A DNA stretch of 64,000 nt, taken from assembly GCA_021372615.1 (NCBI GenBank), contig JAJFUB010000043.1, forward strand, positions 1 to 64,000, given 5' to 3'. Positions within the stretch are counted from its first letter, which is position 1. Each line of letters opens with the position of its first letter. The notes beneath the pieces are model-generated. The model searched no databases. It saw nothing but the letters and a program-made list of their open reading frames with translations, and was not told the DNA's origin. The stretch is from a bacterium (GTDB lineage: Bacteria; Armatimonadota; Zipacnadia; Zipacnadales; UBA11051). Of this stretch, positions 22,101 through 54,588 are shown in pieces. A program made the translations under genes and the position numbers.

Positions 22101-22828
22101 TCGGCGCCACGGACGGCCGGTGGCTCTGTCGCGCCAAGGATCACGGCCACAACGGCTATGAGATCCCGTACGCGGGGGAGGTCGAGCTGCTCAAGGCTAT
22201 CCGCGGGGCTGTCGGCCCGGACGTGGCGCTGTATACGGAGTATGCCCCGGCCGAGGTGAGCCGCCGCTATCTGGATGGCTCGATCTCCTACCAGGCGCTC
22301 TGGAGCGCCGACCAGGAAGCCCTGGCGCCGCACTTCATTGATCTGCCACGTTTCGCCTTCCCGGACTTCAAGCAGTTCCACATCATCTACTATGTCACGA
22401 CCCGCGCGGGGAACTGGTGGCTGCTCAAGTACCCATTCTTCAACGGCGAAGTCTACCGCATCGGGGAGCCCAACCTGCCGAACATGGATGCCCCCTCGCA
22501 GGCCTTCCAGAAGCGCGCGGTACTGGTCCAGTGCGCCCATCGCGAGGCCTTCGCCTCACACAACGTCCGTCCGCTCGTGCCCACGGAAGTCTCCGGCGTG
22601 TTCGCCAATCTGTTCATGGGGCCGCGCGAGAACGTGTGGACGCTGTACAACGCCAACGGGCGCAGCGTGCGACAGCCCGTGCTGCGGGTCAAGCATGCGG
22701 CGGGGGCGACCTACGAGGATGCCTGGAACGGGACGAAGCTGGCGCCGCAGGTCAAGGACGGGGTGGCGGCGGTGGCGGTGGAGCTGGGGCCCAAGGCCGT
22801 GGGTTGTGTGGTGCAGAAGCTGCGGTAG
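19154..22828 (+). CDS. Secreted DUF6259-like glycoside hydrolase with two N-terminal CBM-like modules
   Basis: 1224 residues from the ATG at 19154, picked over the in-frame ATG at 19145 because the GAAGGG site then has nine-base spacing; both give the same signal peptide (VMASLMATALALAAE). Residues about 20-175 and 195-335 are two related beta-sandwich modules (shared YVLVKYRARGL / YLSLRYRAAG and DDQWHVLAVDL / DGAWHNVSVKL), probably carbohydrate-binding. A beta domain follows (about 360-800), then a TIM barrel starting KPWFERVFALISGNG with conserved VFGWG, SLYLDGYL, IMYIDEIGATDG (near 978) and LYTEYAPAEVSRRY (near 1027), the acidic residues being likely catalytic. This matches DUF6259-type proteins, putative glycosidases of unknown substrate. 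The tail is a small Greek-key domain. It ends 28 bases before a block of palindromic repeats. Confidence 0.75.
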   Translation: MRPTVAVMASLMATALALAAEITGASAPQWRPCTGWVTKAPAEYGVADGSGALVFTARGAGTEMPWIINVERVGVSGDERYVLVKYRARGLAAGPAIYFLHGEEGSYGGRAYAMADELKPDDQWHVLAVDLAAINPLEATHNLALKVFVDDSGSARLEVQRLWFDNALPPEAQLARVPGQRPEEVVPVPAQADRFLPRTGWTTAPASDFAAEQAGEAVAFRAGGQGRGMRWLLALPKTVELSRTPYLSLRYRAAGSLGHTTYAVWLGDQESGSGGHSLLALAASDLKTDGAWHNVSVKLTQTFPVTHLAVGLDCEGQEARLSLEGVQFSSRPHRWPVAQMLPYETRAGAWPQGQGGFTTDPAGATGGAPSAFLQQRLGASDWFAAREITVGGVPFAVPGEPTAVRQTATTDLGTLSLKLPPGVREVYLLTAAMAPATELFGIDWQHPRPVELLDVPEKTYFEVRYAAGPPDQVLPLDAETGRWGMRRGLGVCVVHPDPKRQATELVLHDGMQTAAFAIVGTTMLVAAPRVSEPTWKGLAYATPPGKVLPPFRGAASDVNTVYANVLRASFGTDHGLTLSSLSVEGLEGALQCQAGPIFEVSIGGKVLPAEDWVADKEPMGGPPPETGWPRFVLHNRAAGLAAVVECLPATEEGAAPRGGPAALRRDPRELLLRMRLTNEGNAPVTATLKFPVVRGLRLGTAADTWYLSGKRGGIINEADFTTRDPLGERHPLQVDGFFGRGLALACLTHDTEAMHHFISLSKSAEGGAWAAEYVERDLPPGASFDTTEAALVLREGDWRAIFAAYTDWLKTWFQPAAPRKPWFERVFALISGNGHYGASPDPKVRGNVQRLVDTMMKHVGVCDYAHVFGWGASKQYGDWGDYSHYEEVGGRETFHDNIAALQQQGIAVSLYLDGYLSSEKGQIVGAHAQEWAMKRADGSPQYVKEYDSYNECPYMAGWRQHLADTYARVQRDVRPKIMYIDEIGATDGRWLCRAKDHGHNGYEIPYAGEVELLKAIRGAVGPDVALYTEYAPAEVSRRYLDGSISYQALWSADQEALAPHFIDLPRFAFPDFKQFHIIYYVTTRAGNWWLLKYPFFNGEVYRIGEPNLPNMDAPSQAFQKRAVLVQCAHREAFASHNVRPLVPTEVSGVFANLFMGPRENVWTLYNANGRSVRQPVLRVKHAAGATYEDAWNGTKLAPQVKDGVAAVAVELGPKAVGCVVQKLR

Positions 22829-22861
22829 GGCTGAGGTGGGCTATGCCCGCGGGTTGCGCGC

Positions 22862-22882
22862 GTGGGGACACGCGCGCCCACG
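22862..22882 (+). repeat. Dispersed repeat copy 1 (GTG-GGGA-CACG hairpin)
   Basis: The 21 bases here match 54568-54588 at 20 of 21 positions. The copy lies in a perfect hairpin, 22856-22877, with stem GCGCGCGTG / CACGCGCGC and loop GGGA, and is followed by CCCACG in both copies. It starts 33 bases after the stop of the DUF6259-like gene, so it could also act as that gene's transcription terminator. Confidence 0.7.
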
Positions 22883-22912: not shown

Positions 22913-22980
22913 GTAGTGCGGGCTTCCAGCCCGCTCGAGGCCTGTCCGTGCCGCTCTGGCGGGCTGGAAGCCCGCACTAC
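22913..22980. repeat. REPIN-like element: two inverted 22-bp palindromic repeats
   Basis: 22913-22934 and 22959-22980 are exact reverse complements (GTAGTGCGGGCTTCCAGCCCGC form), separated by 24 bases. Each arm is itself palindromic around TTCCA/TGGAA, so the whole can fold as one long hairpin or two small ones. This is the layout of REPINs, which are spread by RAYT transposases in other bacteria; no RAYT gene is in the window. A third exact copy is at 27284-27305. The element lies between the convergent ends of two glycan-enzyme genes. Confidence 0.85.
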
Positions 22981-23020
22981 TGCCCACTTCGTCCTCTCGT
23001 CATTCCACCTTCACATACCA

Positions 23021-26000
23021 TCACGGCTCGAACCGGGCGCCGGCGAAGACCGCGTGGTCGCAGCCGATGTCGCCATTGGCGTCGGTGTACAGCCTGATCT
23101 CATCGGCATCGCCCAGCGGCACCGTCAGCGCCTGCGGGGCCGTCGAACGCAGCATCAGGTTCGACTTCACGGCCTCGCGCCATTCGCCGCCCTGCTTGCG
23201 GAGTTGCACCGAGAAGATGACGCTCCCGGCCTCGGTGTCATCGCAGATGCCGACCATCGCGCGGAACACCCGGAACTTGCCCGGCGGGATGGCGTAGATC
23301 GCCTCGCCGTAGTTCACGGGGCCGTTGGTGACCTCCGGGCAGATCATCAGCCCCTTCTGGTACAGCAGTCCCCCCAGCCGCATCTCGCCCCCCAGATACG
23401 CTTCATTGCGCTTCACCCCGGCGTGGGCGAAGGCCTTCGTCGGCTCCAGGTCGCTCAGGTAGACCGACCCCTCCGGGATCCGGGGGCTAAGGATGAAGCG
23501 GAACGCCAACTGCGTCGCGGCGCCCGTCACGCCGGCGTCGTTGAGGCTGGCGGTGAGGCCGTACGTCGCGCCCTCCTGGCGGTTGGCGAAGTCCAGTAGC
23601 TTCGCCGGCTCGATGGTGAGGACGCCCTGTTTCGGGTTGCCCTGGTCGAGGGTCAGCGTCACGCCGGGCTGCCCGGCGCAGACCGTCTGCTCCCCGGCCT
23701 GCACGAAGGTGTTCTGCGGGTCGAGACGGTTCAGCTTGTCCGCGATCTTGATCTCGATGCTCCGGGGCGGGTCGGGCAGGAAGAGCTGCCCGATGTCGCC
23801 GGCGGCCACGGTCTTGCCGTCGAGCTTGATCTCCGTCACGGCGGGGGGCTCGGTATCGGCCAGGTTCAGGTTTTCGGGAGACTTCAGCGCAATCGTGACA
23901 GGCCCGATCAGACCCGCCGGCACCGTCACCTGGGCCCGCTTGGTCTTCGCGTCGTGAGTGCAGGCCAGTACCTGTGCCCGGCCCGAGCCATCGCGGATGA
24001 TGAGCTTCGTCAGCGCCGTGGCGGAGGGCAGGCTGAGCCGCACCTGCGCCCCCTGGTGGTCGAGTTGCCAGGCCTGGGCGCCCAGCCGCTTGACCGCAAC
24101 GCTGTTCGTGATGCGGAAGCCAAACCACGGACAGAAGTCGTATACCCACCAGCCGATCTTGCCGTCACTGTTCTTGTCGGTGAAGATGTTGGCGAAGGGC
24201 TCCTTGCCCGCCACCTTGATCCACGCCGGCTCGGGCTTCCACCACTCCCGCGCCCGCGAGGGCATTAGCTTGCAATCCTCGATCTCCACGCCCTGCGACA
24301 GGTCCTCGTTGAACAGGATGTACCCGCCCAGCACCGGACCGAAGTCATTGCTCCAGATGTAGTCCTTGCCGAAGATGCGCCAGCGGGTGTCGGTGTGGAT
24401 GATCCGCTTGTCCGCCTCGATGCTGTCCACGTACCCCTTGCCGACCATCGGGCTGATCTCGGTGAGCTGCACCCGGCTGCCCTTGCCCTGCGGTGCGACC
24501 GAGGCGATCTCGTAGCAGGTGCTGTGCCGCCCGTTGGAGAGGACCATCCACTCGCCCTTCAGTGCCTCGCCGGGTGGCAGGGCGACATTCACGTCGAGCG
24601 TGTTCGCCTTGAAGTCCAGTGCGGTGATGGCGCCCTCCCAGCAGGGGGCCGTCTCGATGCTCACATCGCCCACTCTGAGCTTGCTGCCGCCGATGAGCAT
24701 CGCCTGCTTTACGCCCTGCTCGTCGCGACGGACCATCCCCCAGCGCCCCTGTATCTCCCCGCCCCCCGGCAGCGCGATCGGCTTCTCGCCCGTCTCGTCG
24801 GAGATGACGGTGTCGGTGTAGGCGGCGGTCTTGATCTCGGCGGCCACGGGCTCCGTGCCGCCGGCGACAGCGAGGCGGCGCACTTGCTGCATGGAGCGCG
24901 GGGCTCCAGCCCCGCATGTATCAATGATGGCAGCGAAGGCGCTGCTGAGGTTGCCCTCGCCCTTGCGCCGGGCCAGCAGCCACTTCATGTACTGCGGGAG
25001 GTTCGCCCTGACGCGCGGGGACTCGTGGTCGCCCACGATGACCTCATCCGCGCAGCCGGAGAGCATCGTCATGCGCAACTCGGGATAGGGTGGGTTGGCT
25101 TGCGACAGGAACGTGAACTCCCCGGCCGGCTTACCGCGCTGGGGGTGTGCCAGCCAGTTGAAGCCGTTGTTGGCGTCATGCTTGCCGCCCTCGGGGATGT
25201 CCTCGCCGGCCAGCGTGCCCTTGCCCGGTTCCGACAGCGTCACGCCCTCGACGCCCCAGTCGGGCACCGGTGGCAGGTGGAAGCACCAGTCGTGCTGCTT
25301 GCCGCCACGCACGCGGAACACGTCGAACAGGTAGCAGCTTTCGGGGGAGATATCCACCAGCGCGGTCTCGCGCCGGTACAGGCTCGTGCCGGGGAAGCAG
25401 CGTTCGGCGCGGGCTGACACGACCTGCACGCCGTCGCTGCCCTTGATGAAGTCCAGATAGCCCGCCTTGTAGTCCTTCTCCCCCTGCTCGTCCACCAGCA
25501 CCGAGTAGTGGCCGATGCTGTTCTGGGTGAACTGCTGGGCCTTGGCGCCCCACTGGTCGGGGTAGCCCAGGTCGGGCATCATGGACTGCCGGTGGTCGAG
25601 GAACTCGATGTTGAGCCGGTCGTGGTGGGAATGCCCACCGGCCGGACTGCCGTAGTACAGCGCGACCCCGCGCGGGCTCTGCGGCCCGCCCGACTCCAGG
25701 ATCGCCAGCCCCATGCCCCCCAAGTTGCGCGTCCGATAGTTCGGCTGGTCACCATACTTCTTGACGGCCTGCTCCAGCTCCGCCGTGCGGTCGGGCGTGT
25801 AGGCCGCGTAGCGCACGTTCTTCATCATCCACAGCGCCTGGGCGAACTTCGGATCGTGGGTGTTGTCCCAGGCCAGGTGGAACATCTGGGCGTTCCACGC
25901 CCGGCCGGAGCCCAACACGCTCCCGGCGTCGCCGATGGACGGCGTGTGCCCGTCGGCCAGGGACATGTCAATCCAGCAGCCGGCGATCTGCTTGAGGCGC

Positions 26001-27154
26001 GGGTATTCGCGGAACAGGTCGTAGCCGCAGCGCCGCAGCCGCTCGGCCACCTCCACCAGCCTCCCGGCCACGGCCGAGGAGTAGCCAATGGCGCCCTCGC
26101 ACGGGAAGCCGTCGCGGTAGGTGCAGTTGAGGATCAGCTCCTCCAGTGAGTTGTCGCCGCCGTTGTTGATGATCCACTCAATGGCCTGCTTGGTCGTGAC
26201 GCCGTCGGCCGGGTCGTTGTTGTCCCACGCCAGCGCCCAGTCGGCGAAGGCCAACTGGTGGTCGCACTCGTTCGACCAGTACATGTCAGTGCTGAGCTCG
26301 GTCCTGGCGATGGTCTGCATGAACCGCTGCTCGATCTGCCGGCGGACGGGAGCGTCCGCACGCGGGGGCAGGTCGGTCTTGGTCTTGATGAAGTCGCGCA
26401 GGGCCTGGTCGTTGTCCTGCTTTAGGTACGGGAAGAGGCGATCGTAGGCCGTGGACATCGGCGTGACGACGCTCTGGTTCTCCCAGCACCACGGGAGGAT
26501 CATCCCCCCGATGTTGCCCTGGGTGCCCTGCTCGCCGTACTTCATCTTCGGGTACTGCTCGGCCAGCGCGCAAAGCAGCACGGCCGCCTTGTGGGCGTAC
26601 TCCGGCTTGCCGGTGGCGAGATAGGCGTTGCTGAAGCCGGTGATCCCGCGCAGCACGTCATACCAGCGCTGGTGGAAGACCCAGTAGCCGACGAAGAAGA
26701 AACGGTTGCCCTTGGCGTCCACCCAGCCCGTGCCGTCGTCGGGGTAGTCGCCGGTCAGCAGCGACTTGTCCTTCATCCCGCCCTTGAGGTACGCGCCGAA
26801 GTCGTTGCTGGGATAGGTCTCTCCGCCCACAGGACACTTGACCTGCCAGGGCTTGTCGGCCGAGTACAGCCACGGGTAGAAGCCCCCGCCAACGCGGAAG
26901 ACCTCCTTGCCGTGGACGGGGCAGCCGACGTCCGTCGGGCCCAGGAACACTGCCCGCCGCAGCGACGCGGGCGGCACGTAGTCCCACAGCTCCTCATCCG
27001 TCGCGTTCTCCAGGCCGACAGGGACCTGGGGCGTCTGCGGCAGGGCGGCCTTCACGGCCTCGGCTTCCTGGGGCGTCAGCAGCGACACCCCTTCCTTGGC
27101 GCACAGCGGCGTGGCCAGCACGCACAACAGCACGAGCATTGCCCAGGGGTTCAT
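23021..27154 (-). CDS. Secreted heparinase II/III-family polysaccharide lyase with C-terminal NPCBM module
   Basis: 1377 residues from the ATG at 27154, preceded by TGAGG; it opens a signal peptide (MNPWAMLVLLCVLATPLCAKE). An alpha/alpha-toroid with repeated W/Y/H-rich helices (about 60-470) is followed by the beta-sandwich of the heparinase II/III family with GGHSHHDRLNIEFLDH (near 505-520), where His residues and a Tyr act in beta-elimination from uronic-acid sugars. After a long beta-rich region (about 560-1200, including GGYILFNEDLSQGV) the protein ends in an NPCBM-type domain (about 1224-1377, starting VYLSDLEPTKAF, with YQKGLMI and AMVGICDD), which binds galactose-like sugars. A palindromic repeat is embedded at residues about 746-754. 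The substrate could be an alginate-, heparin- or ulvan-like polymer; the sequence does not decide. Confidence 0.8.
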   Translation of the reverse strand: MNPWAMLVLLCVLATPLCAKEGVSLLTPQEAEAVKAALPQTPQVPVGLENATDEELWDYVPPASLRRAVFLGPTDVGCPVHGKEVFRVGGGFYPWLYSADKPWQVKCPVGGETYPSNDFGAYLKGGMKDKSLLTGDYPDDGTGWVDAKGNRFFFVGYWVFHQRWYDVLRGITGFSNAYLATGKPEYAHKAAVLLCALAEQYPKMKYGEQGTQGNIGGMILPWCWENQSVVTPMSTAYDRLFPYLKQDNDQALRDFIKTKTDLPPRADAPVRRQIEQRFMQTIARTELSTDMYWSNECDHQLAFADWALAWDNNDPADGVTTKQAIEWIINNGGDNSLEELILNCTYRDGFPCEGAIGYSSAVAGRLVEVAERLRRCGYDLFREYPRLKQIAGCWIDMSLADGHTPSIGDAGSVLGSGRAWNAQMFHLAWDNTHDPKFAQALWMMKNVRYAAYTPDRTAELEQAVKKYGDQPNYRTRNLGGMGLAILESGGPQSPRGVALYYGSPAGGHSHHDRLNIEFLDHRQSMMPDLGYPDQWGAKAQQFTQNSIGHYSVLVDEQGEKDYKAGYLDFIKGSDGVQVVSARAERCFPGTSLYRRETALVDISPESCYLFDVFRVRGGKQHDWCFHLPPVPDWGVEGVTLSEPGKGTLAGEDIPEGGKHDANNGFNWLAHPQRGKPAGEFTFLSQANPPYPELRMTMLSGCADEVIVGDHESPRVRANLPQYMKWLLARRKGEGNLSSAFAAIIDTCGAGAPRSMQQVRRLAVAGGTEPVAAEIKTAAYTDTVISDETGEKPIALPGGGEIQGRWGMVRRDEQGVKQAMLIGGSKLRVGDVSIETAPCWEGAITALDFKANTLDVNVALPPGEALKGEWMVLSNGRHSTCYEIASVAPQGKGSRVQLTEISPMVGKGYVDSIEADKRIIHTDTRWRIFGKDYIWSNDFGPVLGGYILFNEDLSQGVEIEDCKLMPSRAREWWKPEPAWIKVAGKEPFANIFTDKNSDGKIGWWVYDFCPWFGFRITNSVAVKRLGAQAWQLDHQGAQVRLSLPSATALTKLIIRDGSGRAQVLACTHDAKTKRAQVTVPAGLIGPVTIALKSPENLNLADTEPPAVTEIKLDGKTVAAGDIGQLFLPDPPRSIEIKIADKLNRLDPQNTFVQAGEQTVCAGQPGVTLTLDQGNPKQGVLTIEPAKLLDFANRQEGATYGLTASLNDAGVTGAATQLAFRFILSPRIPEGSVYLSDLEPTKAFAHAGVKRNEAYLGGEMRLGGLLYQKGLMICPEVTNGPVNYGEAIYAIPPGKFRVFRAMVGICDDTEAGSVIFSVQLRKQGGEWREAVKSNLMLRSTAPQALTVPLGDADEIRLYTDANGDIGCDHAVFAGARFEP
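24892..24916 (+). repeat. REP-like palindrome inside a coding sequence
   Basis: The 25 bases here are the exact reverse complement of 35936-35960. The core GCGGGGCTCCAGCCCCGC (24898-24915) is an 18-base palindrome with a TCCA centre, the same design as the intergenic 22913-22980 copies. Read in the minus-strand lyase gene it encodes CGAGAPRS, a short Gly/Ala insertion between IIDT and MQQVRRLAV. The reading frame is kept. Confidence 0.8.
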
Positions 27155-27283
27155 GGTCGTGGACCTCACAAGTCGGCAGTCGGGATGTGTCTTGGCGAGA
27201 CGGCCGGCCGATTCCTCCCTGGCCCGGGGCGCGGGCTCGGGCAGGTGCACGCGTCGGGGTGGCCGAACAGGGGCGTGTCCGGG

Positions 27284-27305
27284 GCGGGCTGGAAGCCCGC
27301 ACTAC
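27284..27305 (+). repeat. Third exact copy of the 22-bp REP-like palindrome
   Basis: GCGGGCTGGAAGCCCGC followed by ACTAC is identical to 22959-22980, in the same orientation. It sits in the 185-base spacer between divergent genes, 34 bases upstream of the ATG at 27340, so it would fall in or near the 5' untranslated region of that gene. Unlike the 22913-22980 pair it is a single copy. Confidence 0.85.
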
Positions 27306-27339
27306 CAATGGTCCGGGCGGCGTCCGGAGGAGACTGCAC

Positions 27340-28044
27340 ATGAAGCTCAGGTTCGTGAAGCTGATCTGCGTCGCGCTGTTGCTCGTGATGGCGGCGGGCT
27401 ACGCCGGGGCCGCCGAGCCGCTGGTGGCGCTCACGTTCACCCGCGACGGGTGGGATCCGGCCGCCTGGACGCTGTGCAAGAACCCCACGGTCGAGCACCT
27501 GGGCAAGTGGGTGCAGCGCGACGACTGCATCGAGAACGAGACACCCGCCGACCCGGCCAAGAAGAGCGCGCTGGACCAGACGCTCACCACGATGATCTAC
27601 AACACGAAGTTCGCCGGCAACTGGACCGCGACCGCGAACTTCGAGATCGGCGCGGGATCGGCGCCGGGAATCGTGCTTGTCCAGGACTGGGCCCCCGACG
27701 CGCAGGGCCGCCCGCAGTACGGCGAGTTCTATGAGGTCATCATCTACGAGAAGGGCCTGAACCTGTGGCACCACTTCGCCACCCCGGAGGGCAAGCGCAC
27801 CTGGGAGAAGACGTGCTACGGGAGCTTCGCCCTCCAGCCCGACACGCGCTACACGCTGCAGGTGCGCCGCAAAGGCAAGCATGTGGAGATGTCCGTGACG
27901 CTGGCCGTAGGACACGTTCCTGAAGAGCGCCCGGAGCGCCACGTGGTCGGTGTGCTCATCAACTCGCTGCCCGAGGAGCTGTTCCTGGGCGTCCTGGGCT
28001 GCGAGGGTGTCAGTCGCGTCTATGACTTCGCGGTGGAGCGCTGA
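27340..28044 (+). CDS. Small secreted concanavalin-like (DUF1080/LamG type) beta-sandwich protein
   Basis: 234 residues. The ATG at 27340 has GGAGGAG seven bases upstream and opens a signal peptide (MKLRFVKLICVALLLVMAAGYAGAAE). A longer frame upstream runs through the repeat at 27284-27305 and is not used. The mature part looks like a single jelly roll: NWTATANFEIG, PGIVLVQDWAP, FYEVIIYEKGLNLWHH and RYTLQVRRKGKHVEMSV are alternating strands as in LamG/DUF1080 domains, which bind or act on sugars; no catalytic residues can be named. It starts a run of plus-strand genes: a sugar isomerase-like gene begins seven bases after its stop and a phosphoesterase overlaps that, so an operon is likely. 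Function unknown. Confidence 0.7.
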   Translation: MKLRFVKLICVALLLVMAAGYAGAAEPLVALTFTRDGWDPAAWTLCKNPTVEHLGKWVQRDDCIENETPADPAKKSALDQTLTTMIYNTKFAGNWTATANFEIGAGSAPGIVLVQDWAPDAQGRPQYGEFYEVIIYEKGLNLWHHFATPEGKRTWEKTCYGSFALQPDTRYTLQVRRKGKHVEMSVTLAVGHVPEERPERHVVGVLINSLPEELFLGVLGCEGVSRVYDFAVER

Positions 28045-28051
28045 CCCCGCC

Positions 28052-28849
28052 ATGCTGAGAATCGGCAACATGCTCTGGCGCATCGGCCGTCTGCTGGACG
28101 TCGAGCGCCAGATGGCCTGGACGCAGCGCGCGGGCTTCGACGGGGTGGGCCTGCACGCCAGCGCGGGCACGCCGGGGCACTGGCGCGGGGTCGAGCCCGA
28201 CATCTGCCCACCGGAGGAGCGCGCGCGGCTGCGCGGCCAGCTCGCCGACTTCGCCTTCCTCGAGATCCACTCCCCCTTCGCGATTGACCTGCAGACCGAG
28301 AGCCTGGCGGAGGGGGTGGCGGCCCTGGCGCCGGTGCTCGACTTCGCCCGCGATCTCGGCGCCTGTGTCGTGACCGTCCACGCCCATCTGACCGCAGCCG
28401 AGGGGCCGGGCTGGCGGCAGGCCATGCAGGAGGTGGACGCCCGGGGCGCCGCCGCCAACACGGTGGTCGCGCTGGAGATCACCGAGGGGTTCGAGGCCGT
28501 GCTCGGCTGGGACTTGCCGCACGTCGGCGTGAACCTCGATGTCGGGCACATGGTCCTGCCGGTCAACGGCGTGCCGCTCGGGCGCTACGGGGGTTTCGGC
28601 CCGCTCATCGGTCTGCTCGGGCCAAAGCTCGTGCACCTGCACCTCCACGATGTACGCGGCAGCGTGGACCACATCGAGATCGGCACGGGGGAGATCGCGT
28701 TCGACCGGATCGTCGGGGGGCTGGCAGACATCGGCTACACCGGCACGGCGACCCTGGAGATGAACCCGGACCGCGTGCCCCCCGCGGGCATCCGTCGCAG
28801 CCTGGGCACATTCCGCAGCGCTCTGGGCGCCGGATGGCCCGCGCGATGA
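28052..28849 (+). CDS. Sugar phosphate isomerase/epimerase-like TIM barrel (AP endonuclease 2 family)
   Basis: 265 residues, no signal peptide. The ATG at 28052 is seven bases after the previous stop, with GGTGGAG inside the end of the previous gene. The protein fits the xylose isomerase-like TIM barrel: metal or substrate ligands are the Glu in FLEIHSPF, the His in TVHAHLT, the Glu in VALEITEGFE, Asp/His in NLDVGHM, the His pair in HLHLHDVRG and the final Glu in TATLEMNPD. Such enzymes isomerise or epimerise sugars, keto sugars or inosose; a few are DNA endonucleases, but the HLHDVRG motif and the genomic context favour a sugar. Cytosolic; probably acts on products imported after extracellular cleavage. 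Exact substrate unknown. Its stop overlaps the next start (ATGA), which implies translational coupling. Confidence 0.85.
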   Translation: MLRIGNMLWRIGRLLDVERQMAWTQRAGFDGVGLHASAGTPGHWRGVEPDICPPEERARLRGQLADFAFLEIHSPFAIDLQTESLAEGVAALAPVLDFARDLGACVVTVHAHLTAAEGPGWRQAMQEVDARGAAANTVVALEITEGFEAVLGWDLPHVGVNLDVGHMVLPVNGVPLGRYGGFGPLIGLLGPKLVHLHLHDVRGSVDHIEIGTGEIAFDRIVGGLADIGYTGTATLEMNPDRVPPAGIRRSLGTFRSALGAGWPAR

Positions 28850-29571
28850 AGCGGCTGTGGATTGCCGACGTTCACGCCAACCTGCCGGCCTTCGAGGCTG
28901 TGCTGGACGACGCCGGCCCCGTGGATGAGATCATCTTCCTGGGTGACATCATCGGCTACGGCCCGCACCCGGCGGCGTGTGTGGACCTGCTGAGGGACCG
29001 GCGCCCGCGGGCAGTGCTGGGCAATCACGATGCTGCAGTGCTGGCCCTGCAGGGCGATGCGCGCGCTCAGGGCGGCGCGTTCCACTGGGACCTGTGGACA
29101 CTGCGTCAGCTCAGCGAGGCGCAACTCGCGTTCTTGCAGGCGCTGCCTGAGACGGTGGCCCTGTCGGCCTGCGGGCAGGACGGGCTGGCGCGGCACCAAC
29201 TGCCGGGAGCGCCGTACCTGCACCCGGCGATGCCGGATGACATCCTGGCCGCGCACTGTGGCCCGCTGCCTGCGCCACTGGTGCTGTGTGGGCATTCGCA
29301 CCGCGCGTTGGACCGCAGCATCGCGGGACGCCGGCTCGTGTGCCTGCCGCCGGTGGGCCAGCCGCGCAACGGGGACCCGCGCGCCGGCTACGCGGTCGAG
29401 CAGGCTGGGCGCCTGACGTTCCACTTCACTCCCTACGACGTGGAGCGCGTGGCCGCCGATGTCGCGCGGCTCGGCCTGCCCGAGCCCTTCTGCCAACGCT
29501 GGATCAACTTCGTCCGCACTGCCGCGGATGCGCAATGGTCGCGCGAGTACGTGCCTGACAACGACGCGTGA
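28846..29571 (+). CDS. Calcineurin-like metallophosphoesterase (YfcE/MJ0936 type)
   Basis: 241 residues from the ATG at 28846, which shares ATGA with the previous stop; an in-frame ATG at 28834 would add four residues. I prefer 28846 because members of the family begin a few residues before the first metal motif. All five metal-binding blocks are visible: IADVHAN, FLGDIIGYG, GNHD, AAHCG and GHSHRA. The size matches small bacterial phosphodiesterases and phosphatases. The natural substrate is not known; in the likely operon (beta-sandwich protein, isomerase-like protein, this gene, lyase) it could remove phosphate from a sugar intermediate, but this is inference. Two residues after its stop the ribosome binding site of the following large secreted protein begins. 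Confidence 0.9.
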   Translation: MKRLWIADVHANLPAFEAVLDDAGPVDEIIFLGDIIGYGPHPAACVDLLRDRRPRAVLGNHDAAVLALQGDARAQGGAFHWDLWTLRQLSEAQLAFLQALPETVALSACGQDGLARHQLPGAPYLHPAMPDDILAAHCGPLPAPLVLCGHSHRALDRSIAGRRLVCLPPVGQPRNGDPRAGYAVEQAGRLTFHFTPYDVERVAADVARLGLPEPFCQRWINFVRTAADAQWSREYVPDNDA

Positions 29572-29583
29572 GTGAGGCCGATC

Positions 29584-32500
29584 ATGTCCTGCCCGAACCT
29601 GCTGTGGGTGTGCCCGATGCTGGTGGTGCTGCTGCCGCTGACGCTGGCCGCGGCGGCTGAGCTGCCGGCCCCGCCGCCGGAGAAGACGTACCACCTCACC
29701 GTGCCGCTGGTGCGCGACGGCCAGCCCGTCTGCGCCATCGTCGCGCCACCGGGCGAGGACTGGGCGGCCCTCGCCCGGCAGATCCAGACGGCGCTGAAGC
29801 CGTCCGGCGCGACCGTGCCCATCGTGGCGGCCAAGGGCCTCAAGCCCGAAGAGATCAGCAGCCGCAACCTGATCCTGCTGGGCAACTTCGTCAGCAACCC
29901 GGCCATCGTCCCCATCTACCACCAGCACTACCTGATGTCTGATGACATGTGGCCGGGGCCGGGCGGCTATGAGCTGCGCACGGTGCACGATCCCTTCGGC
30001 ACCGGCACATGCTACGTGGTGGTCGGGGGCAGTGAGGTCGTGGGCGTGGCGGCCGGCGTGCAGGAGCTGGTGGCGCTGCTACCGGCCGGGAAGACCGTGG
30101 AGTTGCCCGTCACGATCAAGATCGAGAGCCAGGGCAAGACGCCGGCGCAGGGCGACCGGAGCGCGGTCCCCGCGCTGGTCAAGAAGATGCAGGGGCTGCA
30201 GTTCCGCGCGGTGGCGGGCCAACTGTCGGCGGCGGGGCTGAGCTACCACGCCACCGGCGACCTGGCCCAGGCCGAGCTGTTCAAGCAGGGGATGCCCGTC
30301 CTCGCGGCGATTGTGGCCAAGATGCCCGCCGTTACCGATGCCCGGGGCTCGGTGCTGCTGCCGACCATCTGGGACCTGGTCGAGGAGGCGCCTGTCTTCA
30401 CCCCCGCCGACCGCACAGCCATCTTCCGCTTCATGTGGGAGTACGCGAACAAGTGCCCGAACGCCAACAGGACCCACCAGCCGGGCGTCAAGCCCGAGGG
30501 TAACAACTGGGACGCCCGCGCCAACTGGTCGGCCGCGCTGTACTTCAAGAAGTACTACCGCCTCGATGTCGCCGGCCTGTGGACCTGGTGCGAGACGTAC
30601 TTCGGCAAGGACGGGCAGGCCCGTTTCTGGAAGACCGCCGAGGACTGCCCCGGCTACGGCTCCATCACCTACCATGACCTGCTGTACTACGCTCTCAACA
30701 AGCCAGACTGGACATGGTTCGAGAACGGCAATCTGCGCCGGACGGCCGACTACGGCCTGGCCATCACCAACAACCTCGGCGCCGTCAGCGGCTTCGGCGA
30801 TACCAGCGACATGACCGGGGCAGGCCACTGGCCCTCGATCATGCTCGCTGCCGCCTGGTACCACCGCGACGGACGCTACCGCTACCAGTACGACTTCATC
30901 CCCCAGAACGGGCTGTCGGCGGGGGAGTACCTGTATACCAACTACCTCGACAACTCCGTCAAGCCTGTCGAGCCAACGGACATGCTCGGCATCAAGGCGG
31001 TGCCGCTGGACAAGTGGATCTACGAGCACCCGCAGGAGGCGCTCAGCTCCGGCACGGCCGCGGACACAGTGCTCAATGCCCAGACGACCGTGCCGCCCTA
31101 CGACAAGTGCTTTGACAAGATCTCCTTCCGCACGGCCTATCGGACCGACGCGCAGTACCTGCTGCTGGGCGGCATCTCACACGGCTACCACTCCCACCCC
31201 ACCGGTAACTCCATCGTCGGCTACACCGACAACGGCAAGTACATGCTCTTCGACAACGGCTACTTCGTGCCCGACACCATCGAGCACAACACGCTGGCCA
31301 TCGTCCGCGACGGCCTGTTCGAGCCGGTGCCGCGCTTCACGACGCTGGAGCAGCGTGTGGACTTCGGCCCGATGGGCCTGTGCCAAACCATGGTCAGCGG
31401 GTACAACGGCACGGACTGGCGCCGCAACATCTTCTGGGCGAAGGAGAACTGGTTCCTGTGCCTCGATGAGGTCGAGGCGAGGGCCGCGGGCGACTTCGGC
31501 CTGACGTGCATCTGGCGCACCATCGGCGACCTGAACCTACAGGCCGACCGCGTCTGCGCCACCCAGCCCGGCGCGCGGTTCTCGCTGCTCAATGCCAGCG
31601 GCGCGCACTTCCGCGTCACCGGCACCACACCACCCACTGCGGACCGCCACGCGATCATGCAGTCGCTCAACCCGAGCCTGGCCGCCGGCCAGAAGGCCTG
31701 CTTCATCAACCTGTTCTACTCGCCCGAGGGCAAAGAGGACTTCCCCTGCGAGGTTGTGCAGGCCGGACCCGGCGCCGCGCTGGTGCATGGGGCCGATGAC
31801 ATCACGTATGCCGGGGTGAGTAGCGCCGGGGACGGCCTCCCGCAGGTCAAGGCGGCGATGTTCGCGGCCAACTCCCAGGGCTTCACCCTCGCCGGCGGAA
31901 CGGCGCTCACCTGGGAGACGCCGTGGTTCAGCGCCACCAAGCCCGTGGACATCAGCGCGCAGATGACCGCCGGTAAGGCCACCGTTCATGCCGCCGAGGC
32001 CACGACAGTCTCGCTCGCGGCGAAGGCCGGCAAGTGCACTCTCGACGGCCGGGAGATCAGGCCCCAGCGGCAGGGCAACATGGCCGTCTTCGCCGTCCCG
32101 GCGGGGACGCACGAACTCACCTTCCCCGCCGACGTGAAGCCGGCCGCTCAGCCCCGTCTGCAGGCCCACTGGCAGCGACTGCTCGCGGCGCACCAGCAGC
32201 GGCTCAAGGCCCTCGCCCAGGCGGGCAGCCAGCCCGAGGGGCTCCGGCAGGTGTGGTCCGCGGATAACGCGCTGCAGACCCCGCGCAGCGTCTTCCACCC
32301 CGTCGGCGCGCCGGCCGATGCGCAGCACATCGCCCCGGACCTGGCCCGCGCGGGCAAGCCGAACGCCTGGACCGAGGGGAGCCGAGGCTGCAGCCCTGCC
32401 GCGGCAATGGATGGCAACCCCGAGTCCTACAGCGCCGTCGGTAGCGGCGCCGCCAACGTCACAGCCCTGCCCAAGGACCTCGGGGTGGAGTGGCAGACGC

Positions 32501-33852
32501 CCCAGACCGTCGCGCAAGTGCGCGTGACCCACTACGACATGAACTACGTCCCTGCGCCGGACGGCCACGACATCCAGGTCTGGGACGGCAAGGACTGGGT
32601 CTCGGTGGATGACACCGTCACCGGAGCGAACACGCCGCTCTGGGTGCACACCTTCGCCCCGGTGAAAACCACGCGCGTGCGCCTGCTGGTCACGAAGTTC
32701 GCCTCGATGCGCACCGCCATCCGCAGCTTCGAGGTCTTCTCCGAGCCGGTGGAGCCCGCGCAGGTCACGGTGCGCGAGCCGCAGACCATCTCCGCGCTGC
32801 AGGCGGCGGACCTGCGCGGCAATGGCCAGATGCAGGTGCTGGTCGCCGCCGGCAAGCGCGTGCGCTGCCTGGACGGCCAGGGCCAGATCGTGTGGGAGAC
32901 GACGCTGCCCGATGCCTGCCTGGACCTGGACACCGGCGACCTGAACAAGGACGGAGTGCGGGAGATCGTCGTGGGCGCGGGCAGCAACCTCTATTGCCTG
33001 GACGCCGCCGGCAAGCAACTGTGGGTGACTGCCTGCCCCAAGGACAAGTACGTCCCCGAGATCGAGCCCCAGCAGGGCCCGTTCCGCGTCGTGCGCTGCG
33101 CCGACATCAACGGCGACGGCTTCGGAGAGGTCATCGCCGGCTCGGGCAACTGGTTCACATACGGCGTCAGCCACGAGGGCAAGGTGCTGTGGGGGACGCT
33201 CAACTGGGCGCACCAGCCGACCTCGATTGCCACGGTGGACCTGGACGGGAAGGGCAAGCTGGCGTCCCTGGTGGGCAACACGTACTGCTCGGCGAACCTG
33301 TTCTCGCCGGAGGGCAAAGTCATCGGCGACGTGCCGGTCGGCTACCATGGGGCGGCCATGGCGGTCGCGGCGGGGGACATGGACGGGGACGGCAAGGCGG
33401 AGCTGATCGCCGGCTCGCGCATCGGGGGCATTCACTGCAAGACGTTCGGGGCCGAGGCGGTCAACTGGAGCCTCGATGCCGGCGCGGAGATCACCGCCAC
33501 GATCCTGACCGACCTCAACGGCGACGGGCGGCCCGAGCTGCTCGTGGCCAGCCGCAACTCGTACGTCATGGCTCTGGACGCCCAGGGCAAGGCGCTGTGG
33601 CGGTGCAACTGCGGCAACCCGGTGCGGGACCTCGCGGTCATGCCGGGCAAGGAGGCGGCCGTCGCGGTGGCGACCGACGCGGGGGCGGTGATCGTGCTGG
33701 ACGCCAAGGGGGAACGCCGGGGCTTCTTCCCCGTCCCGGCCGATGTCACGAAGGTCGTCGCGGCCGACCTCGATGGCGACGGCCAGCCGGAGATCGTCGC
33801 GGGCAGCGCCGACAGCCGCCTGGTCGCGCTCAAGAGCCTGCCGGCGAAGTAG
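29584..33852 (+). CDS. Secreted lyase-like toroid protein fused to F5/8 type C module and FG-GAP/PQQ-like propeller
   Basis: 1422 residues from the ATG at 29584. A GTG at 29572, directly after the previous stop, is in frame, but TGAGG sits six bases before the ATG. Signal peptide: LLWVCPMLVVLLPLTLAAAAE. Residues about 200-500 form a helical toroid with many aromatic residues (NNWDARANWSAALYF, YHDLLYYALN), followed by a beta-sandwich with GGISHGYHSHPTGNS (near 529), as in heparinase II/III-like polysaccharide lyases. An F5/8 type C (discoidin) module follows (about 926-1056, AAAMDGNPESYSAV). The last 360 residues are repeats with calcium-binding loops DLNKDG, DINGDGFG, DMDGDG and DLNGDG, a seven-bladed FG-GAP/PQQ-like propeller. 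The fusion of a lyase with a propeller is unusual. Polymer cleavage is plausible but not proven. Confidence 0.75.
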   Translation: MSCPNLLWVCPMLVVLLPLTLAAAAELPAPPPEKTYHLTVPLVRDGQPVCAIVAPPGEDWAALARQIQTALKPSGATVPIVAAKGLKPEEISSRNLILLGNFVSNPAIVPIYHQHYLMSDDMWPGPGGYELRTVHDPFGTGTCYVVVGGSEVVGVAAGVQELVALLPAGKTVELPVTIKIESQGKTPAQGDRSAVPALVKKMQGLQFRAVAGQLSAAGLSYHATGDLAQAELFKQGMPVLAAIVAKMPAVTDARGSVLLPTIWDLVEEAPVFTPADRTAIFRFMWEYANKCPNANRTHQPGVKPEGNNWDARANWSAALYFKKYYRLDVAGLWTWCETYFGKDGQARFWKTAEDCPGYGSITYHDLLYYALNKPDWTWFENGNLRRTADYGLAITNNLGAVSGFGDTSDMTGAGHWPSIMLAAAWYHRDGRYRYQYDFIPQNGLSAGEYLYTNYLDNSVKPVEPTDMLGIKAVPLDKWIYEHPQEALSSGTAADTVLNAQTTVPPYDKCFDKISFRTAYRTDAQYLLLGGISHGYHSHPTGNSIVGYTDNGKYMLFDNGYFVPDTIEHNTLAIVRDGLFEPVPRFTTLEQRVDFGPMGLCQTMVSGYNGTDWRRNIFWAKENWFLCLDEVEARAAGDFGLTCIWRTIGDLNLQADRVCATQPGARFSLLNASGAHFRVTGTTPPTADRHAIMQSLNPSLAAGQKACFINLFYSPEGKEDFPCEVVQAGPGAALVHGADDITYAGVSSAGDGLPQVKAAMFAANSQGFTLAGGTALTWETPWFSATKPVDISAQMTAGKATVHAAEATTVSLAAKAGKCTLDGREIRPQRQGNMAVFAVPAGTHELTFPADVKPAAQPRLQAHWQRLLAAHQQRLKALAQAGSQPEGLRQVWSADNALQTPRSVFHPVGAPADAQHIAPDLARAGKPNAWTEGSRGCSPAAAMDGNPESYSAVGSGAANVTALPKDLGVEWQTPQTVAQVRVTHYDMNYVPAPDGHDIQVWDGKDWVSVDDTVTGANTPLWVHTFAPVKTTRVRLLVTKFASMRTAIRSFEVFSEPVEPAQVTVREPQTISALQAADLRGNGQMQVLVAAGKRVRCLDGQGQIVWETTLPDACLDLDTGDLNKDGVREIVVGAGSNLYCLDAAGKQLWVTACPKDKYVPEIEPQQGPFRVVRCADINGDGFGEVIAGSGNWFTYGVSHEGKVLWGTLNWAHQPTSIATVDLDGKGKLASLVGNTYCSANLFSPEGKVIGDVPVGYHGAAMAVAAGDMDGDGKAELIAGSRIGGIHCKTFGAEAVNWSLDAGAEITATILTDLNGDGRPELLVASRNSYVMALDAQGKALWRCNCGNPVRDLAVMPGKEAAVAVATDAGAVIVLDAKGERRGFFPVPADVTKVVAADLDGDGQPEIVAGSADSRLVALKSLPAK

Positions 33853-33903
33853 GGCCGACGGGAGGGCATGACGGCGGGGCGCCGGGGCTTCGCGCCGGTT
33901 GTC

Positions 33904-36645
33904 CTACCGTGCTGCTGCGGTCCACGACACCCGCACTTCGCGGACCCGCGGGGTGCCGCAGCCGTCGCGAGCGCCGAGGGCCAGGCGGTACTGCACCCAC
34001 CGCGCCTGCGCTGTCGGCAACGCGATCGCGTTGTCGTAGCCGCCCCACGACCCTTCCCCCTCCGGTCCCAGCCACGCCGCCTGTGCGAGTGCCTCCTCAG
34101 CCTCGGCCACCCGCACCTGTGCCCGCACCCATGTCCCCTCGGGGACATCCGCCTCCCAGCTCACCCGTAGTGTCTCCACCCCGCCCGGCAGCTCATGCGG
34201 TGCGGATGCGTACAGCTCTTCGGGGCCCCGATCACGCTGGTTGCCCGAGCCCACGCGCGTCATTCCGTGCGGCCCCTCGGACGGGAGGCAGGTGACGTTG
34301 CGCTCGGAGAAGCCCTCCGGACCGTTCCACCACACGGCCGAGTGACCCAGGTGATCGTTCTCGACCTTGTGGTAGGCGATCCCGAGGTCTACCCAGCCGT
34401 CGCGGTTGAAGTCCGCCGTCACGGCGCCGGAGGCCGAATGGGCGAACAAGCGTGTCCGGCAATCAGCGCGGAACGTGCCGTCCTCCTGCCCCCAGTAGAT
34501 GAAGGAGTGGATGTCCCGCTCGCGGCCGTCGTGGTAGTTGGCCACGAAGAGGTCCAGATGTCCGTCATTGTTGAAGTCGGCCACCCCGAGGGCATTGACG
34601 CCCTGGGCGGGAAGCTGCATGCGGTTGTCCTCGCGCAGCCCCTCTGGGCCATTCCAATAGATGTACACGAACGAGTCGTGCGGTCCCTGCAGGGACGGCG
34701 TGTGGCCGGCGATGATGAGGTCCAGGTATCCATTGCCGGTCAGGTCGGCCGCCTGCGCGCAGGAGGCGTGGATCACCGACAGCAGTTGCTTGCGCTCCAT
34801 GCTGAAGCCCTCGGGGCCATTCCAGAGGATGAAGCTGCGGTCGCTGCCGATCTGCGGCACGATCAGGTCGAGCCAGCCGTCGCCGTTCAGGTCGGCCAGG
34901 CTGATCCAACGCGGCTGATCCCACTTCTCCCCCTCTGTCGCCATGCTGATCCGCTGCGGGTGCCCGATGTCGTAGCCCTCAGGCCCGCCGTAGAAGATCA
35001 GGATGTCGCCGAACGAGAACCCCACAAAGACGAGGTCGAGATAGCCATCGTGGTTCAGGTCCGCGCAGCACACGCCATGGGCGCGTGTTGTGGGCAGGAT
35101 GGTCGCCGGCTCATAGGCATAGTCGCCATCGCGCCCCCGGAAGATGAACGAGCCGGGGTCCAGATGTGTCGCGTTCTCCGAGCAGTTGGCCGTCACGATC
35201 TCGGGGAAGCCGTCGTCATCCAGATCGCAACAGACCGCATCCACCGCGTCGCGCCCCTGGAGGGGATGGCGGCGCTCGGGGCTGAAGCCTTCGGGGCCGC
35301 CCCAGTAGACCATCGGGTCCACGTCGCCCCCCGCCCGACGCGCCCGGTGGTTGACGAGGATCACCTGCGGGTCGGGCGCCGCGCTCGTACGGGCAATGAG
35401 CACCCGCCGCGTGTCATGCCCCTCCAGCGTCAGCGGCTCGGGGGCCACGCCGGTGGGCGTGCCCCGGTACACGAGCGAGTGGTAGGAGTACGACTCGTCG
35501 GTGCGGTCCTGGCCCAGCACGATGTCCGCGCAGCCGTCGCCATCCAGATCGCCGACGGCCACATCGCAGGCATTGTGCGAGGGCAGAGCCGTGCGGCGGG
35601 TCTCGTCGAAGCCCGCGGGCCCGCCCCAGTACACCCAGGAACACTCCTGGCCCGCGTGGGTTCCTCGCGAGGCCACCACGAGGTGCTCGTGCCCATCGCC
35701 GTTCACGTCGCCCGCCGCTACCGCCAGCGCGTGGGCTGCGGCGATGACCAGGGGCTCCCCCAGCGCGCGGTCTGCCCTGACGGGGGCCAGACGGAACTGG
35801 TCCTCGCCCGGGAGGAACAGGTGCGGCCTGCCGCCCAGCCGCACGACCTGCGCCAGCGCCCGCGCATCAAAGGGCTGCTCGGTCTCCGGCGTGTCGTCGG
35901 AGCGCGGCTCTCCAGAGCCGCCAGTCGTCCCCTCCTGCGGGGCTGGAGCCCCGCGCTCCACGCCTTCCACTGTGGTACAGCGCTCCGGGCTGAGCCCGTC
36001 CGCCCCACCCCAGTACACGCGCGCCTGACGCTCCCGCGTCAGCGCCAGCAGGTCCGCGTAGCCGTCGCCGTCCAGATCGTCGGCCACGATCTGCTCGGCT
36101 TCGAGGGGCAGGTCCACGAAGCGCTGGGGCTCGAAGCCCAGGTCGGACTGGGCGAAGAGGCGAACGCGGCCGCCGCAGACGAAGGCCAGGTCGGGGCGGC
36201 CGTCGCCGTTGAAGTCGCCGCAGGCCACGGCCGAGGCCCCGGGGGCGGGGATCTCGACCCGCCGGTGCGGGCTCAGGCCCGCGGGCCCGCCATAGTAGAT
36301 GAAGGCATTCAGGTCCGTCCGCGACCCGTTGTAGTCCATCGCCAGCACGAGGTCGTCGTAGCCGTCGCCGTTCAGATCGGCCACGACCCCGGCTACGGAA
36401 CCGTCCGAAGGCAGCTCCACCCGTGCCCCGCCCGCCAGGGGCGTGGGATACACATAGCACGGCGGGCGCTCCCAGTGGTTCTGGCTGTTGCAGATCAGCA
36501 GATCGGGCCAGCCGTCGCCGCTCAGGTCCAGGAAGTGCAGGCGCTGCAGCACGCCCGTCCGCGACACGTAGAGGTTCTGGCCGCCGTTGTCGAAGCTGCC
36601 GCGTCGGAAGTCCTCGAAGCCACGGGTGATCCATTCGCTCTGCAT
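33904..36645 (-). CDS. FG-GAP/VCBS repeat protein without a signal peptide
   Basis: 913 residues. The ATG at 36645 has AGGAGAGG seven to eight bases upstream; the frame continues further up but would run into ilvE. The protein begins MQSEWITRGFEDFRRG and lacks any hydrophobic leader, although nearly all of it consists of FG-GAP-like repeats with calcium loops (DLSGDGWPD, DLNGDGYDD, DFNGDGRPD, DLDGDGCAD and so on, a dozen or more copies), each followed by WxGxxGF-type strands (YWGGPEGFS). Two or more seven-bladed propellers could form. The end (about 820-913) is a beta-sandwich with WEADVPEGTWVRAQVRV. FG-GAP proteins are usually extracellular, so export by a non-Sec route or a cytosolic role are both open. 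Residues about 229-249 are encoded by an inserted REPIN-like element. Function unknown. Convergent with the FG-GAP-ended lyase gene. Confidence 0.75.
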   Translation of the reverse strand: MQSEWITRGFEDFRRGSFDNGGQNLYVSRTGVLQRLHFLDLSGDGWPDLLICNSQNHWERPPCYVYPTPLAGGARVELPSDGSVAGVVADLNGDGYDDLVLAMDYNGSRTDLNAFIYYGGPAGLSPHRRVEIPAPGASAVACGDFNGDGRPDLAFVCGGRVRLFAQSDLGFEPQRFVDLPLEAEQIVADDLDGDGYADLLALTRERQARVYWGGADGLSPERCTTVEGVERGAPAPQEGTTGGSGEPRSDDTPETEQPFDARALAQVVRLGGRPHLFLPGEDQFRLAPVRADRALGEPLVIAAAHALAVAAGDVNGDGHEHLVVASRGTHAGQECSWVYWGGPAGFDETRRTALPSHNACDVAVGDLDGDGCADIVLGQDRTDESYSYHSLVYRGTPTGVAPEPLTLEGHDTRRVLIARTSAAPDPQVILVNHRARRAGGDVDPMVYWGGPEGFSPERRHPLQGRDAVDAVCCDLDDDGFPEIVTANCSENATHLDPGSFIFRGRDGDYAYEPATILPTTRAHGVCCADLNHDGYLDLVFVGFSFGDILIFYGGPEGYDIGHPQRISMATEGEKWDQPRWISLADLNGDGWLDLIVPQIGSDRSFILWNGPEGFSMERKQLLSVIHASCAQAADLTGNGYLDLIIAGHTPSLQGPHDSFVYIYWNGPEGLREDNRMQLPAQGVNALGVADFNNDGHLDLFVANYHDGRERDIHSFIYWGQEDGTFRADCRTRLFAHSASGAVTADFNRDGWVDLGIAYHKVENDHLGHSAVWWNGPEGFSERNVTCLPSEGPHGMTRVGSGNQRDRGPEELYASAPHELPGGVETLRVSWEADVPEGTWVRAQVRVAEAEEALAQAAWLGPEGEGSWGGYDNAIALPTAQARWVQYRLALGARDGCGTPRVREVRVSWTAAAR
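35899..35960. repeat. REPIN-like double palindrome inside the FG-GAP gene
   Basis: Outer ends GGAGCGCGG (35899-35907) and CCGCGCTCC (35951-35959) are inverted. Inside lie two palindromes, 35904-35921 (core GCTCTCCAGAGC) and 35937-35954 (core GGGGCTGGAGCCCC). The right part, 35936-35960, is the exact reverse complement of 24892-24916 in the heparinase-like gene. The element translates without a stop on the minus strand into a Gly/Pro/Ser/Glu-rich loop (ERGAPAPQEGTTGGSGEPRS) that interrupts the regular FG-GAP spacing, so it is probably a tolerated insertion on a propeller loop. Confidence 0.85.
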
Positions 36646-36750
36646 GGGCCTCTCCTGTGCGTCCGTGCCTGCAGCCTCGCCAGTTCGCCCCGCTGCCCGC
36701 CGCAACCTGTGCGCGGGCCCCAACGCCCCTAGGCCTTGCGCCATTGCCAT

Positions 36751-36779
36751 TTGAAAACCGGGGGCGTAAGGACTATACT
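36751..36779 (+). promoter_or_regulatory. Sigma-70-type promoter of ilvE
   Basis: TTGAAA (36751-36756), a 17-base spacer and TATACT (36774-36779) match the vegetative promoter at five of six positions in each box. Transcription would begin near 36786, leaving a leader of about 52 bases, too short for a T-box or a leader-peptide attenuator. Confidence 0.8.
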
Positions 36780-36837
36780 TCAGCAGACGTTCGCGCCCCG
36801 TGCGGACGATGACCCTGCGATACAAGGTGGTACAGTT

Positions 36838-37710
36838 ATGCCCTTGCAGATCTGGCTCGATGGCCAACTCGTTCCCGAAGCGGAGGCCAAGATATCTGTG
36901 TTCGATCACGGCCTGCTGTATGGCGACGGTGTCTTTGAGGGCATCCGGGCCTATCACGGCCGTGTATTCAAGCTGCAGGAGCACCTGCAGCGCATGTTCG
37001 ATGGCGCGCATTGCCTCAGCCTGCAGATCCCCTACTCCCCCGAGGAGATGAAGCAGGTCGTGCTGGAGACTCTCCGCGCGAATGGCCTGCAGGACGCCTA
37101 CATCCGCCTTGTGGTCACCCGGGGCAAGGGCGATCTGGGGCTCGATCCGGCCAAGTGCCCGGTCGCCACGGTCTTCTGCATCGCCACCTCGATCTCGCTC
37201 TACCCGGAAGAGTCCTACCAGAAGGGCCTGTCGCTGATCACCTGCTCGACGCGGCGGAACACGCCGCAGGCACTGAACATGTCCATCAAGTCGCTCAACT
37301 ACCTCAACAGCATCCTGGCCAAGCTCGAATGCACGAGCGCCGGCCTGTCTGAGGGCATCATGCTCACCACGGACGGCTATGTGGCCGAATGCACGGGCGA
37401 CAACATCTTCCTAATCAACGGCAACGAACTGCTGACGCCGCCGGTGCACGTGGGCGCCCTGCCGGGCATCACGCGCCAGGCCGTCATGGACCTGGCCCCC
37501 GGGCTGGGGCTGGAGCTGCGTGAGGACATGTTCCGCATCCAGTCGGTCTACACGGCCGGCGAGGTGTTCCTGACCGGCACCGCCGCCGAACTCATTCCGG
37601 TGGTGCAGGTGGACGGCCGCAAGGTCGGGGACGGCAAGCCGGGCCCGACCACCCAGCGCCTGCTGGAAGCCTTCCGCAAGCTGGTCCAGACCTGTGGCGA
37701 GCCCATCTAG
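36838..37710 (+). CDS. ilvE: Branched-chain amino acid aminotransferase (class IV PLP enzyme)
   Basis: 290 residues, cytosolic. The protein is a class IV fold-type aminotransferase: VFDHGLLYGDGVFEGIRAY, the lysine K151 in MSIKSLNYLN that forms the Schiff base with pyridoxal phosphate, the EGIMLTTDGYVAECTGDNIF motif contacting the cofactor, and GVxR-like PGITRQAVMDLA. These fit IlvE, which transfers the amino group between glutamate and the keto acids of leucine, isoleucine and valine; D-amino acid aminotransferase and ADC lyase are the closest alternatives but the LNYLNSILAK context favours IlvE. Size (E. coli about 309) is normal. The ATG has AAGGTGG seven bases upstream and a strong promoter 60-85 bases upstream. 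It stands alone, with no other branched-chain genes close by. Confidence 0.9.
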   Translation: MPLQIWLDGQLVPEAEAKISVFDHGLLYGDGVFEGIRAYHGRVFKLQEHLQRMFDGAHCLSLQIPYSPEEMKQVVLETLRANGLQDAYIRLVVTRGKGDLGLDPAKCPVATVFCIATSISLYPEESYQKGLSLITCSTRRNTPQALNMSIKSLNYLNSILAKLECTSAGLSEGIMLTTDGYVAECTGDNIFLINGNELLTPPVHVGALPGITRQAVMDLAPGLGLELREDMFRIQSVYTAGEVFLTGTAAELIPVVQVDGRKVGDGKPGPTTQRLLEAFRKLVQTCGEPI

Positions 37711-54525: not shown

Positions 54526-54567
54526 ATGCTACAACTCCTTCGTCTCTGTCACGACCACGAGGCGGGC

Positions 54568-54588
54568 GTGAGGACACGCGCGCCCACG
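54568..54588 (+). repeat. Dispersed repeat copy 2 (GTG-AGGA-CACG hairpin)
   Basis: Twenty of 21 bases match 22862-22882 in the same orientation. The flanking bases allow a hairpin with GGGCGTG and CACGCGCGCCC arms and one bulge. It lies in the 67-base spacer between the aldolase and aminotransferase genes, just after the aldolase stop codon region. Confidence 0.7.

Follow-up and report, generated by a model that had tools for sequence, protein, structure and literature searches.

The short palindromes in the 64,000-nucleotide stretch of DNA analysed here (the window) very probably represent two families of GTAG-superfamily REPs, some of them paired as REPINs and others decayed to single copies, with in-frame copies that survive in tolerant loops of proteins and with a RAYT as the most likely agent of their spread. 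This identification draws on the copy number, anatomy and stem covariation of the elements, their in-frame location, the net length gain of their host proteins over REP-free orthologues and the presence of RAYT genes in the genome.

A first-pass annotation of this DNA had reported palindromes of two sequence classes, and all of the elements lay where it had placed them (Table 1). Two convergent genes (18890-22828 on the plus strand and 23021-27250 on the minus strand) enclose the spacer that holds the class 1 REPIN, and the flanks of this REPIN scored as non-coding. The single class 1 REP lies in the spacer that separates the heparinase gene from a divergent plus-strand open reading frame (ORF) with its ATG at 27340. 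Class 2 is represented by the two coding elements, and the pair in the FG-GAP gene is a hybrid, with a CTC/GAG stem in its left half (35899-35921) and a GGC/GCC stem in its right half (35937-35959). The annotation had also claimed that the coding copies share an identical 25-base core, TGGAGCGCGGGGCTCCAGCCCCGCA; this is correct for the heparinase copy and the right FG-GAP half. In the whole genome, the GGC/GCC stem variant is found just twice, at these same two sites, and local copying across the 11 kb that separates them is likely. Shuffled sequence gave no class 1 match for the window even at three mismatches, and a mean of 0.11 class 2 matches (two mismatches) versus the three present.

Table 1. 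Repeat elements of the window and the two genes that carry class 2 copies.
Feature	Position	Strand	Remarks
Class 1 (GTAG) REPIN	22913..22980	.	68 bp, two exact REPs inverted, head-out
Class 1 REP, left half of REPIN	22913-22934	+	Exact match
Class 1 REP, right half of REPIN	22959-22980	-	Exact match
Heparinase II/III-like protein, C-terminal NPCBM domain	23021..27250	-	ORF intact
Class 2 (GGAG) single REP	24893..24915	+	Stem variant GGC/GCC; in frame, heparinase-like gene
Class 1 (GTAG) single REP	27284..27305	-	Exact match
FG-GAP/VCBS repeat protein	33904..37011	-	ORF intact
Class 2 REPIN, hybrid	35899..35959	.	61 bp; in frame, FG-GAP gene

The window comes from a 6.4-Mb draft genome of 171 contigs that is 96.7% complete, and a search of this genome showed that the repeats are abundant rather than unique. 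Class 1 (GTAGTGCGGGCTTCCAGCCCGC) had 93 core copies, versus none for a reversed-pattern control, and class 2 (GGAGCGCGG-nnn-TCCAG-nnn-CGC, with the inner triplets left free) had 115 matches with at most one mismatch, versus four for the control. We surveyed the elements in 117 patches (760 kb) around the genome match sites, which contained 112 copies of class 1 and 96 of class 2. Exact matches numbered 68 for the class 1 22-mer, GTAGTGCGGGCTTCCAGCCCGC, and 55 for the class 2 23-mer, GGAGCGCGGCTCTCCAGAGCCGC. Together, the two classes amount to about 200 copies in the genome. Neither exact sequence occurred in 60 related genomes, which indicates a lineage-specific expansion. The exact class 1 22-mer was also seen in unrelated genomes (Oscillochloris, Scytonematopsis, Dehalococcoidia, Chloroflexi, Binatia, Phycisphaerales and another planctomycete); this distribution across several phyla, including a cyanobacterium, may reflect horizontal spread or repeated origin.

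The anatomy of the elements is that of REPs assembled into REPINs. Class 1 has a GTAG head, and its short hairpin with an unpaired head places it among the GTAG-superfamily REPs. The head of class 2 is GGAG within GCCGTTGGAG, outside a strict GTAG definition; class 2 has the extended consensus GCCGTTGGAGCGC and extends to GCCGTTGGAGCGCGGCTCTCCAGAGCCGCAG. Adjacent inverted pairs of the same class were head-out (+-) in 53 cases and of the opposite orientation (-+) in none, and mostly measured 53-74 bp. Each of the two pairs in the window folds as one hairpin (class 1, -32.6 kcal/mol, z -8.6; class 2, z -3.6). Across 34 distinct class 2 sequences, 94% of stem cells were paired and 13 were double compensatory cells. 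The covariation score of this stem was 0.237, compared with 0.111 after shuffling (none of 500 shuffles reached the observed score) and no more than 0.074 when the pairing was slid. The elements are thus high-copy, dispersed and mainly extragenic, as REPs are, and they form inverted doublets of fixed orientation in one hairpin with compensatory changes in the arms, as REPINs do. Anatomy, copy number, orientation and covariation together back the REP/REPIN identity that had been proposed from the window.

We next consider where the copies lie relative to genes, with coding state assigned by scoring the codon usage of the flanks against a training set of long ORFs rather than from curated gene models. 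By this score, 65 of the 125 assessable elements (52%) had a clearly non-coding context on both flanks, compared with 3.6% of control windows, whereas one open coding-like frame ran through both flanks of 27 elements (22%, roughly one in five), compared with 67% of control windows. Two of the 125 would shift the frame. The resulting ratio of 27 in-frame to 2 out-of-frame copies departs from the 1:2 ratio predicted in the absence of selection (p = 2e-11) and implies that genes do receive insertions but that only in-frame outcomes persist. In-frame intragenic copies, first suspected from two genes in the window, are therefore real and frequent throughout the genome. As read from the sequences, class 1 has a TAG stop in one of its six frames and class 2 has a stop in none; every open REP frame was put to use among the in-frame copies. 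One coding match, C27:8144, deviates at several positions, and we judged it to be a probable chance match rather than a true REP.

In the window, the effect of the repeats on the host proteins is modest, with existing loops lengthened or overwritten. The REP in the heparinase-like protein encodes CGAGAPRS in a beta-turn, which the structural model sets between two strands. Relative to REP-free relatives at about 40% identity, the net change is +2 to +3 amino acids (aa), and the turn is present in those relatives too. The REPIN in the FG-GAP protein encodes about 21 residues, VERGAPAPQEGTTGGSGEPRS, and lengthens the protein by a net 9 to 11 aa compared with orthologues that are 55-68% identical. 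The gain falls in a linker that varies in every orthologue and that an AlphaFold2 model places between two strands with pLDDT below 50. The orthologue alignment that the first-pass annotation had proposed gave a divided answer: the REP-bearing proteins are longer, but the loop sites exist in relatives without the repeat. Its claim that the repeat creates new Gly/Pro-rich loops does not apply strictly to the window genes, for which REP-free relatives already have the linker or the turn; new segments do arise at other loci of the genome, HydF among them.

For 13 in-frame genes, an alignment to REP-free relatives from the same family and order spanned the insertion site, and the REP-bearing protein was longer in 12 of them. 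The clearest case is HydF, which has 18 to 20 additional aa at a 58-bp REPIN, seen as a clean gap in a 76%-identical orthologue; HydF chains in the PDB also lack the segment. Large gains were likewise found in a membrane protein (C118, +22 aa), a DNA methyltransferase (C142, +24 to +29 aa) and a helicase-like protein (C89, about +30 aa), and smaller ones in the products of genes on C10 (+11 or +12 aa), C114 (+14 aa), C110 (+10 aa) and C101 (+5 aa). The gains on C76 and C85 fell within the range of +5 to about +30 aa, the C85 comparison being made at only about 40% identity. By contrast with these gains, FolC (C48) is 32 aa shorter beside its REP, so deletion may go along with insertion. Because net length change is unequal to element length in several proteins (the heparinase-like protein, FolC and the C101 protein), flanking deletion or overwriting must also occur. 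Comparisons of FolC, the FGGY kinase and an acyl-CoA synthetase with PDB homologues gave ambiguous gaps, as the loops vary in length. Usually, then, an in-frame REP adds 5 to 30 aa to a loop or linker.

The genome encodes seven Y1_Tnp transposases, two of which exceed the cut-off of the curated RAYT model NF047646: the product of a gene on C34 (80.7 versus a cut-off of 80 bits) and that of a gene on C146. A search for such RAYT/TnpA-REP genes had been suggested together with the original REPIN proposal. The C34 RAYT has the motifs NHVH (HUH) and EYTEMNPVKAGL (the tyrosine motif), and its gene is bracketed by inverted REPINs, GCCGTAGGAGCGCCAGCTTCCAGCTGGC, of a sister family. This family has 18 exact copies plus covarying variants, and its head, GCCGTAGGAGCGC, agrees with the extended consensus of class 2, GCCGTTGGAGCGC. 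None of the seven Y1 genes of the assembly has exact class 1 or class 2 REPs at its flanks; several of the 171 contigs end in REPs, and a matching RAYT could be missing from the assembly. A RAYT gene in Candidatus Binatia is bracketed by GGAGTGCGGGCTTCCAGCCCGC, which is the class 1 stem, and its product is 51% identical to the C34 RAYT over 182 aa. Moreover, a Chloroflexi genome that carries exact class 1 copies also codes for a RAYT of the C34 type. The sister REPINs around the C34 gene and the class 1 stem around the Binatia gene make the C34-type RAYT clade the best candidate mobiliser, and we infer that a member of it moves classes 1 and 2 and that movement is ongoing.

Most likely, the REPs spread as single-stranded hairpins that are cut and pasted, or copied, by a RAYT (HUH/Y1) of the C34 kind. 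Insertions would land in both genes and spacers, and frameshifts and damaging inserts would be purged by selection. GC-rich and almost stop-free copies with a net change that is a multiple of three would therefore persist where loops and linkers tolerate them, and would be translated there as short peptides rich in Gly, Pro, Ala and Arg. We take these peptides to be neutral rather than useful.

An alternative is that the palindromes are immobile transcription terminators or mRNA-stability hairpins that recombination has spread and a regulatory role has maintained, the coding copies being by-products. The strong enrichment in non-coding spacers (52% versus 3.6% of control windows) and the position of the copy at 22913-22980 between convergent genes would fit this explanation. 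However, terminators are not expected to show a fixed head-out pairing and spacing, an association with RAYT genes both in the host and in another phylum, or a net added length in conserved enzymes such as HydF. We therefore consider it quite unlikely, and pair orientation, RAYT linkage and the enzyme insertions led us to reject static terminators as the sole explanation.

It is also possible in principle that the inserts are positively selected as functional peptides, the lineage drawing on REPs for new protein segments. The share of in-frame copies (27 of 125) is high compared with Pseudomonas fluorescens SBW25, in which 14 of 1,067 core 16-mers overlap genes (PMC3116915), and the ORFs are intact, with many copies at loop positions. 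Yet purifying selection alone explains both the depletion from genes and the strict frame rule, the two sites modelled are a turn and a disordered linker, and the peptides vary by reading frame and share no sequence, all of which makes such selection very improbable. A further reading, which we regard as unlikely, is that RAYT-borne REPs steadily supply this lineage with new protein segments: with nearly all REP frames open, insertions would be tolerated often enough for some of the two dozen in-frame copies to have taken on roles as functional loops. It is hardly credible that chance or convergence produced the coding copies as GC-rich codon runs with no repeat insertion: the heparinase net change of just 2 or 3 aa in an alignment at about 40% identity, and the probable chance match at C27:8144 among the listed coding matches, lean that way, but 22-23-base matches to a family consensus are not expected by chance, the flanking T and A that the 25-base core includes are family consensus as well, and the clean HydF gap against a 76%-identical orthologue also speaks for insertion. 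For most copies, this explanation is already contradicted.

The reading preferred here, RAYT-borne REPs that persist in genes when in frame, has precedents. REPs in frame have already been published, and the present case is a rich, orthologue-tested example of known elements. For many species, PVC bacteria included, Di Nocera et al. (2013) reported GTAG REPs that lie in frame within ORFs, with the most intragenic copies in O. terrae; intragenic GTAG dimers encode 20-30 residues, for which a linker or loop location was suggested (PMC3733652). Our elements resemble those REPs in having an unpaired head and a short stem, head-to-head dimers, a mostly extragenic location and some in-frame copies, whereas the head of class 2 is GGAG (GTTGGAG when extended) and the in-frame share is high. 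The two REP sequences found here are absent from the main text of that paper. Similar to the REPIN/RAYT system (Bertels and Rainey 2011, PMC3116915; Nunvar et al. 2010, PMC2817692), we found inverted doublets in one hairpin, covarying stems and a RAYT bracketed by inverted REPs, but the connection to a RAYT is made here by way of REPs of a sister family and of a RAYT homologue from a different phylum. Earlier work on Rickettsia palindromic elements (RPE) reported in-frame insertion into ORFs, with host ORFs that are likely functional (cited in PMC3733652). Palindromic repeats in frame within ORFs are common to both cases, whereas RPE-4 and RPE-6 of R. conorii are CGTC-tagged (PMC3733652) and the elements described here are GTAG/GGAG-headed units of 22-23 bp with a RAYT link. 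We rejected membership in the RPE or CGTC REPs, as the heads are GTAG, GGAG or GGAC and no CGTC tag is present.

One genome and its REP-free relatives thus provide a well-documented case in which mobile palindromes have added segments to conserved enzymes, HydF among them. This makes a long-standing question testable: are REPs inside genes neutral debris, or do they supply raw material for protein evolution? In addition, a RAYT clade common to distant phyla is tied to a common REP stem.

Other repeats were seen alongside these elements. The sequence GCGTGgGGACACGC, often followed by CCGCCCACGCGA, occurs in the window at 22860-22873, adjoining the class 1 REPIN, and at 54566-54579, and has 45 copies (at most one mismatch) in the 760 kb around REP sites. 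The FGGY-kinase ORF (C22:57052-63074) contains, besides its in-frame REP, a second insert, SPPCPPLKGGEQKGPPRLPLPPLSGGGRGG, which PDB homologues lack, and the similar LPPTPSLKGGGDG follows the REP in an ORF at C101:15599; the two probably represent another intragenic repeat class. Within their first 140 bases, C153 and C154 share an identical stretch before a class 2 REP and then diverge, which suggests a longer repeat at these contig ends. Further Y1 genes are flanked by other repeats (GTGGGCTGCCGCCCACGGCTACG, 93-bp tandem units and GCCGGCGAGACGCCGGC), and several REP/RAYT systems seem to coexist in the genome.
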